DNA of 64,000 bases from assembly GCF_024300625.1 (NCBI RefSeq), contig NZ_CP101322.1:3485992-3549991 (forward strand), in the 5' to 3' direction. The position numbers were made by a program, and so were the translations under genes. Below the pieces are notes generated by a model. It made no database searches. It was not told where the DNA came from and was given only the letters and a program-made list of their open reading frames with translations. Below, piece by piece: positions 44,278 through 48,519 of the stretch. Source of the stretch: Halovivax gelatinilyticus. GTDB lineage: Archaea; Halobacteriota; Halobacteria; Halobacteriales; Natrialbaceae. The first letter of the stretch is position 1, and each line of letters opens with the position of its first letter.

Positions 44278-46170
44278 CTACGGTCGCGATCTGATCGCGA
44301 AGGCGGCAGCGCTGAGTAAGGCGACGAGCGCGACGGCGACGCCGAATCCGGGCATGCCGTCGTCGGCATCATCGGCTTCTGTCTCCTCGTCGGCGGAGAC
44401 CTGCGTCGAGCCGACCGAGTCGTCGCTATCGGCTTTCTTCTCCTCGTCGTCCTTCGGATCCGGCTTCTCCTCGTCCTTCTTTTCTTCGTCACCGATCGGT
44501 CCGCTCTCGTGTGAGATCGCCTCCGCGGATCCGACCTGTACGTTTTCGTTCTCCTGGACGGTCAGCTGCACGGCGGACGCGCTGCCGCCATCTTCGGCGA
44601 CGGCGATCGCGTTACTGGCTTCGTAGTTCAGCTGGACGATTTCCTGGCTCTGTTCGACCTCGGCGGTCGACCATTGCTCGACGTCGTTGAGCTGATCGGA
44701 GCCGCCGTCGTAATCGAACGACGTTCGGTCGGCGTCAGCGAGTTCGTCGCCGCCGAGCGTCAACGCGGTGGTTTCGGTAATTACGAACGTCTCGAAGGAG
44801 TGTCCGGCTTCAGGTACTCCGTGGGCGTTCTTCTTGTCGTCGTGGTCTTTCGTTTTGTCATCGTGCTTCTTCGGAATCTCGTCTTCCTCGAAGAAGATGT
44901 TCAGCGCGTCGGCGGACGCGACCTGCGCATTGACGTTCTGCTGGTAGGTTAGCTGAATCGCCTGGGCCGTGCTAGCGTTGGTCGCGACGGCCGTCGCGGA
45001 GCTGTTGATCAGCATGTTCGCCTGTTCGGCGCTCTGATACTGGAGAACGCTCGCTTCGGCGTACTGATCGACGTCACCGTCTTTCTTCTCACCGTCGTCG
45101 TTCTTCTCTTTCGGCTCGTCGTACGCCATCGCATCCTGCGCGACGATCGGTGTTGCGCTCCCGATCGACGCCGTCGCGACGTTCATGCCGGCCGAGTCCA
45201 TGAGGACGTTGACCGCCTCCGCGGTTCCGAGTTGCTCGTTGATGTTCGACTGATCGGTCATCTGGATCGCCGTCGCCGTCGAATTCTCACCGATGGCGAT
45301 CGCAACGGCTGCGCCCTCCTGGAAGGCGTTTACCTGATCTGCTTCCTGGACCTGTTCGACCGTCGCATCGGCGGTCTGATCGACGTTCAGATCACCGTCG
45401 TGTTTTTTCTTGTGTTTGTCGTGTCCGTCCTTCTTGTCGTCCAGATCGGCCGCGAGAACGTTAGTCGCGCTGGCGTGTCCTTCCTGGAGGTTCAGGTTGT
45501 TCTGCTCGGTGAACTGAACGGCGACGGCGTCGCTGTCGTCTTCGGCGAGCGCGAACGCGGTCGCGTTCTGGACGATATTGGCCTGACCAACTTCCTGGCC
45601 CTGCGTGACGCTGGCAATAGCGGTCTGACTGGCGGTCACCTCGCCCTTGTCGTCGGCGATGGCCCAGCCGTCGAACGACTGGTCACCGTTGTTGCCGACG
45701 ACGACGTAAACGTCACCGACGTCCTCGAAGGTCGCTTCGTGACTCGCGGTCGGATGGTTCTCGGCCGTCGCGTAGCCCTCCTGGTCGTTCAGGTTCTGCT
45801 GGTCCACTTCCTGGATGGCGATTGCCTGGCCGCCCCCGATGGCGACCGACACGGCTTCACCCTCCTCGACGAGGTTCACCTGGCCGACGTCCTGGTACTG
45901 AATTACTTCAGCATCACCGGGCCCAGCGGCGTCAGTTGACGCACCGGCTGGATTATCACTCGCGTGCGCTTCGATGTACTCCTCGAGACTCATATCTCCG
46001 AGGTCGGCACCGAACGCAAGGTAGAGATCTTCTCCGTTCTGTAGCGTTTCGAGTGTTTCTGTGTGATCGTCGTCCTCGTCGGCGATGGCGGCCGGCGACG
46101 CGACCGCGACCATCGATAGGACGACCATACAAGCGATCAGTATCGTCGTGATTCGTGACTGTGCTGTCAT
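44278..46170 (-). CDS. PGF-CTERM surface protein with five curlin-like repeats
   Basis: 630 residues. Signal peptide about 1-30 (IACMVVLSMVAVASPAAIA). Five repeats of 52-57 residues at about 87-139, 183-238, 266-322, 370-425 and 501-552 share the pattern A-x-V-x-Q-x-Q-x3-Q-x-N, then an Ala-rich strand pair, then A-x-Q-x-T-x-Q-x-N-x-N-x-Q-x-G-x-A-x-A. Alternating Q/N and small residues are what curlin (CsgA-type) beta-helix amyloids use. Repeats are separated by Asp/Lys/His-rich linkers (for example 241-262, 427-452). The end, GMPGFGVAVALVALLSAAAFAIRSRP by its key parts PGFG plus hydrophobic helix plus Arg, is a PGF-CTERM signal for archaeosortase A. It is therefore predicted to be cell-surface anchored. 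Confidence 0.85.
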   Translation of the reverse strand: MTAQSRITTILIACMVVLSMVAVASPAAIADEDDDHTETLETLQNGEDLYLAFGADLGDMSLEEYIEAHASDNPAGASTDAAGPGDAEVIQYQDVGQVNLVEEGEAVSVAIGGGQAIAIQEVDQQNLNDQEGYATAENHPTASHEATFEDVGDVYVVVGNNGDQSFDGWAIADDKGEVTASQTAIASVTQGQEVGQANIVQNATAFALAEDDSDAVAVQFTEQNNLNLQEGHASATNVLAADLDDKKDGHDKHKKKHDGDLNVDQTADATVEQVQEADQVNAFQEGAAVAIAIGENSTATAIQMTDQSNINEQLGTAEAVNVLMDSAGMNVATASIGSATPIVAQDAMAYDEPKEKNDDGEKKDGDVDQYAEASVLQYQSAEQANMLINSSATAVATNASTAQAIQLTYQQNVNAQVASADALNIFFEEDEIPKKHDDKTKDHDDKKNAHGVPEAGHSFETFVITETTALTLGGDELADADRTSFDYDGGSDQLNDVEQWSTAEVEQSQEIVQLNYEASNAIAVAEDGGSASAVQLTVQENENVQVGSAEAISHESGPIGDEEKKDEEKPDPKDDEEKKADSDDSVGSTQVSADEETEADDADDGMPGFGVAVALVALLSAAAFAIRSRP

Positions 46171-46960: not shown

Positions 46961-47623
46961 CTACTCGGTGTCAATCTCGGGCGGTTGTTCGGTGGCGCCC
47001 ACTCGCAGCCGGCGGTCGCGGTATGCGTGTACGGCTGCCGACCCGAGTACGATCAGCAAGAAGACAGCCGTCCATCCGACCGGGGGAACGAACGAGAACG
47101 GTATCGCCCCAGCACCGCTCAATACGGCAAGAACGAGCCCAGTAAGCGTGGTTCCCAGGTAGTAATAGCTCCAGGGAACGTCGTTATCTGGGACGAGGTC
47201 CAGGTAGACGTCGAGATCCTCCGCGATTCGTGTCCGTTCTATAACACCAGCTCGCTCGTCGTAGGCGATCAACTCGGCGTCGTCGAGTTTCGGCAGGTGA
47301 AACTGTTGAAGGGCGGTGTAGACCCGCTTTCGCTCCGCGGATCCGATCCCCTCGATCGACGTCCCGTTCTCCCAGGCGGCGATGCGCTCTGCGAGTTCGT
47401 CGAGTCGGACGGGTCGATCCACCCACTCCAGATAGTGAAGCACGTGGCGTCGTCGTCGGTTTCCGAGGACTTTGAACAGCTTGTCTTTATAGACGGCAGT
47501 CGATTCTATCGGATCCATCGTCGCCCGGCGTTCCGGGGACGATCGCCGCGTCGATTCCATCGGTGGTCCGTCCCAGCCGTGTGGAACCGGCGGATCCCCG
47601 CGATCGTGTGTTTTTGATCCCAT
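46961..47623 (-). CDS. DUF7344-type winged-helix membrane regulator
   Basis: 220 residues. LFKVLGNRRRRHVLHYLEWVDRPVRLDELAERIAAWENG is represented by its key parts NRRRRHVLHYL and LDELAERIAAWENG; with KRVYTALQQFHLPKLDDAELIAYD this is the haloarchaeal winged-helix domain annotated DUF7344. Two membrane helices follow (about 162-180, 184-202), so the DNA-binding part is tethered to the membrane. ATG 47623 is used; an internal ATG at 47518 is an alternative. CATATAAG on this strand (47679-47687) is the TATA box. It is the obvious candidate to control the surface-protein genes on either side. Confidence 0.75.
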   Translation of the reverse strand: MGSKTHDRGDPPVPHGWDGPPMESTRRSSPERRATMDPIESTAVYKDKLFKVLGNRRRRHVLHYLEWVDRPVRLDELAERIAAWENGTSIEGIGSAERKRVYTALQQFHLPKLDDAELIAYDERAGVIERTRIAEDLDVYLDLVPDNDVPWSYYYLGTTLTGLVLAVLSGAGAIPFSFVPPVGWTAVFLLIVLGSAAVHAYRDRRLRVGATEQPPEIDTE

Positions 47624-48162: not shown

Positions 48163-48519
48163 ATGAAACGAGCACTCACGTTCACACTGACGATGGTCGT
48201 AGCGATCGGCATGCTTGCCATGCTGGGATTCGCGGGCGGCGTTGCCGCAGACAGTCATGAAAATGGAAATGACGATGACGGCGATAGCTGGTTCAGCGGT
48301 GGTGACGGACACGCCCACGCAGAAACGAACATCAATCAAGGTAATGCAGCGGGCCAGATAGGACAAGCATCCGCGTACTCTGGCGGTGATGCAGGCGTGA
48401 TCAACGTCCAAAAGGGAAGCCAGACCAACTACGCTTCTGCCACCACAGTCGCTGATGGCAGCGGAGGCGACGTGGACGTTGACGTTAGTCTAGATATTAT
48501 CGCCCTCCTCGAAGACTAA
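48163..48519 (+). CDS. Small secreted Q/N-repeat protein (curlin-like)
   Basis: 118 residues. Signal peptide about 1-29 (KRALTFTLTMVVAIGMLAML, ending GVAADS). The mature part begins with an Asp/His/Gly-rich stretch and then NINQGNAAGQIGQASAYSGG and INVQKGSQTNYASA, two units with the Q-x-N/Q-G-N style of the repeats in the 630-residue surface protein. It lacks a membrane anchor. Possible roles are minor fibre subunit or nucleator; both are inference. The ATG at 48163 begins a classic basic-hydrophobic signal, which decides the start. Confidence 0.65.
   Translation: MKRALTFTLTMVVAIGMLAMLGFAGGVAADSHENGNDDDGDSWFSGGDGHAHAETNINQGNAAGQIGQASAYSGGDAGVINVQKGSQTNYASATTVADGSGGDVDVDVSLDIIALLED

Follow-up and report, generated by a model that had tools for sequence, protein, structure and literature searches.

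Curli and Fap are among the closest described systems to the locus reported here. The minimal repeat of curlin is X6QXGX2NX10, and Dueholm et al. (2012) refer, giving no name in their text, to "a single archaeal protein" whose repeats resemble those of curli (PMC3521004). In FapC, each repeat is one layer, with variable linkers and conserved Asn/Gln positions, and 94% of the proteins have three repeats, yet FapC polymerises (PMC12392863). The stacking of these layers was inferred from covariation-type data (PMC6173800) and then seen by cryo-EM (PMC12392863). The archaeal functional amyloids listed in a 2025 review are limited to MspA and the unconfirmed HVO_1403 (PMC12520557). Biofilms of Haloferax volcanii bind Congo red and thioflavin T, with the gene not confirmed (PMC4180959). 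Here we describe a conserved pair of haloarchaeal genes, one for a large and one for a small secreted protein, whose family looks like a candidate for the archaeal equivalent of the amyloid fibres that give bacterial biofilms their cohesion.

Results

The window (the whole stretch of DNA that was analysed, 64,000 nucleotides) contains at 44278-46170 an open reading frame that the first-pass annotation described as a 630-residue, secreted, curlin-like protein with five repeats. The reading frame is real, comprising 630 codons with five units, charged linkers and a PGF-CTERM end; its strand is corrected here to minus, the gene running from 46170 to 44278.

44278..46170, minus: coding sequence of the large protein with five Q/N-ladder units (P0001), 630 aa (open reading frame list, translation)
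46081..46170, minus: Sec-type signal peptide, about aa 1-30, MTAQSRITTILIACMVVLSMVAVASPAAIA (sequence reading; helix 4-21 in the model)
45961..46029, minus: conserved N-terminal segment DLYLAFGADLGDMSLEEYIEAHA, aa 48-70 (Y50, F53 and G54 invariant in 40 homologs)
45757..45927, minus: Q/N-ladder unit 1, aa 82-138 (motif and unit alignment)
45655..45729, minus: conserved insert between units 1 and 2, FEDVGDVYVVVGNNGDQSFDGWAIA, aa 148-172 (G168 invariant, W169 above 90% in 40 homologs)
45460..45630, minus: Q/N-ladder unit 2, aa 181-237 (motif and unit alignment)
45208..45381, minus: Q/N-ladder unit 3, aa 264-321 (motif and unit alignment)
44899..45069, minus: Q/N-ladder unit 4, aa 368-424 (motif and unit alignment)
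44512..44679, minus: Q/N-ladder unit 5, aa 498-553 (motif and unit alignment)
44287..44364, minus: PGF-CTERM archaeosortase signal, aa 603-628 (TIGR04126, E = 1.4e-9; PF18204; archaeosortase gene in the genome)

The proposed secretion agrees with the Sec-type signal read in the sequence, and the Asp/Lys/His-rich linkers do lie between the units. Each of the five units spans 56-58 residues and carries a Q/N/A ladder. The repeat pattern claimed earlier is borne out precisely: there are exactly five copies each of Q-x-Q-x3-Q-x-N and Q-x3-Q-x-N-x-N-x-Q, against means of 0.013 (maximum 2) and 0.0016 (maximum 1), respectively, in 20,000 composition shuffles. The division of each unit into two homologous half-repeats also holds, the halves matching at a shift of 27 with Q-x-x-x-Q-x-N-x-N-x-Q in common.

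This anatomy is conserved across the family. An alignment of 40 homologs has hardly any invariant columns other than the ladder Q, N and A of all five units, and mean entropy is 0.29 bits in ladder columns versus 1.91 bits in the alternate columns (p = 5e-20). Exactly five units were found in 100 of 102 distinct homologs, the other two having five and a fragment. Five hundred units fit one 57-column alignment with gaps nearly absent, in which Q10, Q12, Q16, N18, Q39, Q43, N45, N47 and Q49 are each present at 99-100% while alternate positions vary; linkers range from 5 to 79 aa. Given the entropy difference and the near-fixed number of units, the ladder pattern is under strong selection.

The archaeosortase-type anchor named in the first-pass annotation is well founded. 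TIGR04126 matched the C-terminus at 37.4 bits (cut-off 24.5, E = 1.4e-9), PF18204 exceeded its Pfam cut-off, and the protein has the PGF motif, a transmembrane helix (helix 610-627 in the AlphaFold model) and a basic end. The same genome encodes the archaeosortase exosort_PGF_TRM/ArtA (TIGR04125, 290.9 bits, E = 1.2e-86). The anchor is present in 13 of the 40 large homologs and absent from 27. Two homologs (L097:8553-10142 and L098:8987-10636) have an apparent twin-arginine (Tat) signal, MKRRGYLRGL, and no Sec signal, with Lys-rich tails in place of the PGF anchor and no small gene adjoining; the Tat signal, if real, would imply export in folded form.

Homologs of the large protein were detected in 99 of 125 Natrialbaceae genomes, representing 26 of 29 genera. 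Across the class, 84 of 391 genomes matched, all but five of them Natrialbaceae; relatives occur in Natrinema, Natrialba, Natronorubrum, Halopiger, Natronococcus and Halobiforma, and more distant ones in Haladaptatus, Halegenticoccus, Halogranum and Halocatena. The gene is single-copy and chromosomal in the genome studied. Only one of four same-genus relatives has a homolog (three of the five genomes of the genus lack it), and the large protein is therefore dispensable. Relatives on contigs were found with an alignment as query; a single-sequence query found none. No Pfam family covers the repeats of the protein or of its 40 large homologs, in NCBI, copies on plasmids are named "hypothetical protein" or "PGF-CTERM sorting domain-containing protein", and a description of the family was not found in the open literature, subscription papers being outside the scope of the search. 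The large protein is a member of an undescribed family. A viral origin was considered and rejected, as no viral relatives were found. Foldseek against viral models gave no significant match.

Three tandem two-unit Q/N-ladder proteins are encoded in a Thermincola ferriacetica MAG (Bacillota; L201:6977-9289, plus strand), flanked on one side by a YheCD-type ATP-grasp gene and on the other by a PGA_cap gene, with no evident signal peptide. The unit profile finds each of their six units (E 5e-19 to 9e-14). Among 398 genomes of that phylum it matched no other, and a wide occurrence in Bacillota was rejected. These copies may have arrived by a rare transfer, or the same layer may serve a second purpose in this bacterium, and the three-gene array is possibly spore- or capsule-related.

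Upstream of the large gene lies a small secreted protein that the earlier description of 44278-46170 did not include, with a further gene between the two.

48163..48519, plus: small secreted partner (P0002), 118 aa, with a signal peptide and two swapped half-units, ladder about aa 52-98 (translation, ortholog, profile homology)
46961..47623, minus: DUF7344 protein between the large and small genes (PF24035, E = 6e-30)

The small protein has an ortholog at the same place in a sister genome (58% identical), and its small relatives consist of one unit or of both half-units in swapped order. Of 40 loci, 27 have one to three such genes upstream of the large gene, 39 in total, and every one is divergent from it. 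The profiles of the unit and of the small proteins are homologous (hhalign 94.7%, E = 6e-8), and the large-protein profile matches the small genes directly (about 1e-6 to 1e-11). Across the 40 loci, a small gene adjoins 5 of the 13 PGF-anchored large proteins versus 22 of the 27 unanchored ones (Fisher p = 0.011).

The DUF7344 protein is a possible local regulator. Its gene recurs at the equivalent place in the sister genome (L069 10596-11321), and among the loci examined it separates large and small genes in these two only. Another secreted or membrane protein, with "FSWGTVTHETDSETGATDVEVIVDAEDDVSVSV" repeats, is often encoded 3' of the small Q/N gene (L069:12252-13067, L083:6511-7146, L084:6414-7046, L089:12246-12902, L096:14277-15104 and L108:6253-6885); it is absent from the window and may be a third component of the system. 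In two loci, a separate PGF-CTERM surface protein adjoins the small Q/N genes (L096:12559-13827 and L101:6088-7142, the latter in two split frames). Its Q/N/D-rich tail directly before the anchor is a possible docking point.

Structure prediction gave low-confidence models. AlphaFold2 with 40 homologs returned a mean pLDDT of 49 and a pTM of 0.43 for the large protein, with the best parts of the units at pLDDT 70-85. Each unit was modelled, at this low confidence, as two strands of about 28 residues around a tight turn (e.g. E179-210/E214-240). Foldseek against the PDB listed six chains at E < 10, led by FapC (9nqd), CsgA (8c50) and FapC (9u4u), none of them significant (E = 0.017, 3.5 and 5; TM < 0.1); this ranking is suggestive, not evidence of fold. 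Matches of the small-protein model (pLDDT 52.5) were weak and fell on long hairpins of beta-barrel pores, which we disregarded as generic. Profile searches of PDB sequences with the family produced chance matches only and no FapC, and comparisons by Pfam, PDB profiles and the unit HMM against CsgA and CsgB detected no sequence homology to a known amyloid.

Covariation was computed for 100 homologs (Neff about 48) across those positions of the five units that vary, and its results depend on settings. Inter-unit coupling is highest at offset 0 (mean z 0.37 versus -0.03, SD 0.13, elsewhere; permutation p = 2e-4). Gene conversion explains this poorly because identity between units within one genome is barely above that of randomly paired genomes. 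Within the unit, coupling is stronger at i,i+2 than at i,i+1, as for strands; it is absent for antiparallel registers with sums around 63-65 (-0.07, -0.08 and -0.62), and half-to-half covariation at offset 27 was not seen. Because the inter-unit signal falls on the same position, in-register stacking of the units as cross-beta layers is the favoured reading, though covariation cannot separate stacking within one chain from stacking between chains. Units two apart are more strongly coupled than adjacent ones: in one setting with 100 homologs, a pattern that is not robust, coupling was strongest in pairs 1-3, 2-4, 3-5 and 4-5 and weak in 1-2, 2-3 and 3-4. This may hint at an alternating stack.

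These results divide the structural claims made for the protein earlier. The stacking of repeats fits the covariation, which is compatible with five units in register, while the model and the Foldseek matches are too weak to support it. The assignment of one beta-helix turn to each half-repeat is not borne out, given the two long strands per unit in the low-confidence model and the missing covariation at offset 27. The structure-prediction check that had been suggested yielded neither a confident structure nor a curlin-family profile match.

Discussion

Our best explanation, which we hold at slightly better than even, is a haloarchaeal cell-surface cross-beta system of the functional-amyloid type, made of a large platform and small subunits. 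The large protein would be exported by Sec and, in PGF forms such as the one studied here, its C-terminus would probably be processed and lipid-anchored by archaeosortase A, a known pathway. Each of the five units would be one layer, its invariant Q/N/A face allowing identical side chains to stack; with the variable acidic linkers projecting as loops, a single chain would form a stack of five layers. The small proteins of the divergent genes would be add-on subunits that extend or cap this stack, with the large protein acting as platform or nucleator by analogy with CsgB/FapB for CsgA/FapC. The product could be a fibre, or a stiff appendage of the cell surface, by which cells in salt-lake biofilms attach to one another or to surfaces. 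The repeat anatomy, the selection on the ladder, the count of five, the conserved gene pair and the anchor signal are shown directly, and stacking in register is supported by covariation; polymerisation, the roles of both proteins and this biological use we infer. Several observations favour the reading as a whole: the invariance of the ladder, the fixed count of five, the covariation at offset 0, the divergent and unit-homologous small proteins, the ArtA gene, the separate gene for an S-layer-type signal protein, the FapC/CsgA/FapC order of the top Foldseek matches and the shared architecture with FapC. The reading is weakened by the poor AlphaFold model, the insignificance of the Foldseek matches, the lack of sequence homology to known amyloids and the dependence of covariation on settings. 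The missing anchor in 27 of 40 large homologs and the lower frequency of small genes beside anchored forms also fit badly with a simple rule in which the anchored protein is always the nucleator. More tentatively, and at somewhat less than even, we propose an undescribed class of functional amyloid built on a 57-residue double Q/N/A-ladder layer, with an anchored five-layer nucleator and one-layer secreted subunits in haloarchaea; with the layer also found beside the YheCD-type ATP-grasp gene in the Bacillota MAG, the fold may cross domains.

The main rival is a beta-solenoid or stacked-layer adhesin or stalk that does not polymerise, in which the five units of one chain form a rigid rod holding the N-terminal segment off the S-layer, and the small proteins serve as caps or ligands resembling a unit, with no fibre. 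Many surface adhesins use such stalks, the almost exceptionless count of five suggests a closed, defined object, and covariation is blind to the difference between the two arrangements. Against this, stacking partners are the most sensible role for small secreted proteins of one unit that share the face, solenoid stalks seldom have long unconserved linkers between their layers, and the near-fixed repeat count of FapC (three in 94%) is compatible with polymerisation (PMC12392863); we regard the stalk as rather unlikely. Distinctly less probable is a long antiparallel hairpin, each unit forming two strands of about 28 residues with one Q/N face, joined along their edges to give a sheet, a barrel or a sandwich. 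The two continuous strands around a tight turn in the AlphaFold model, the hairpin model of the small protein with its weak pore matches, and a change of parity by one residue from Q22 to A25 of the unit, which would be a classic bulge, all point this way; the models are of low confidence (pLDDT 49 and 52.5), and coupling is missing from the antiparallel registers and appears between units at the same position only. Haloarchaeal S-layer glycoproteins have PGF-CTERM as their sorting signal, and this signal together with the single chromosomal copy would suit a component of the S-layer or of another cell-wall lattice. That identity is very doubtful and was rejected, since an S-layer-type protein with halo_sig_pep is encoded elsewhere in the genome and the large protein matches no S-layer family in Pfam or NCBIfam; its homolog is also missing from most genomes of the genus.

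If the preferred cross-beta reading is true, the family represents a new sequence solution to cross-beta stacking at very high salt. It already provides concrete, widely conserved amyloid candidates in cultured genera (Natrinema, Natrialba, Natronorubrum and others), and these candidates, together with the gene pair, make the question of haloarchaeal amyloid testable.

Curli resemble the locus in being secreted, in their Q/N-rich imperfect repeats (five in E. coli CsgA), in a divergent gene arrangement and in the idea of a minor and a major subunit, and an archaeal protein with curli-like repeats has been mentioned (PMC3521004). A true archaeal homolog of CsgA/CsgB is nevertheless hardly credible. 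The curlin likeness in the first-pass annotation is one of composition and not of motif: PF07012 (Curlin_rpt) matched neither the large protein, 40 large and 30 small homologs, nor anything in the whole genome, whereas the E. coli positive control matched. QxGxxN occurs 0 times in the large protein versus five times each in CsgA and CsgB, and Q/N-X10-Q/N falls below expectation (7 observed, 10 expected; CsgA 11/4.5, CsgB 16/4.8). Q/N autocorrelation lies at lags 2/4/6/8 rather than the 11/22 of curlin, a spacing of 2 versus 11, the unit HMM scores 1.0 bits against CsgA and -6.7 bits against CsgB, and the repeat is 56-58 residues with linkers instead of about 22 end to end. With the defining motif, Pfam family and 11/22 period all absent, curlin membership was rejected. 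Haloarchaea have no outer membrane, and the csgEFG/csgC companions are hence not expected.

Among archaeal systems, the MspA/SH sheath of Methanosaeta and Methanospirillum is likewise an extracellular amyloid-like beta protein (PMC10593813, PMC6242892), but it forms a tubular sheath in different archaea, and sequence comparison through Pfam and PDB searches gave no link. The Congo red- and thioflavin T-positive matrix of Haloferax volcanii is haloarchaeal (PMC4180959); its putative amyloid (HVO_1403, unconfirmed) has no reported connection with this family, whose members lie almost entirely within Natrialbaceae.

By analogy, FapC is the better architectural model than curlin. It differs in having three units versus five, no archaeal anchor and no sequence homology; no fap companion genes were noticed at this locus. 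The FapC motif GNxGxN..aaG..NqQN occurs in none of 40 large and 44 small proteins, and with PDB profile searches also giving no FapC match, identity with FapC was rejected. The likeness lies in the near-fixed count of long imperfect repeats with linkers of very variable length (PMC12392863), which the haloarchaeal family shares by analogy and not homology (five in 100/102; linkers 5-79 aa), in the invariant Asn/Gln framework with same-position covariation between repeats (PMC12392863, PMC6173800), in a second, shorter homologous protein at the locus (FapB beside FapC), and in FapC being the best, though insignificant, Foldseek match. If the cross-beta reading is true, the family would be a second case beside FapC in which repeat number and Asn/Gln positions are fixed while the rest drifts.
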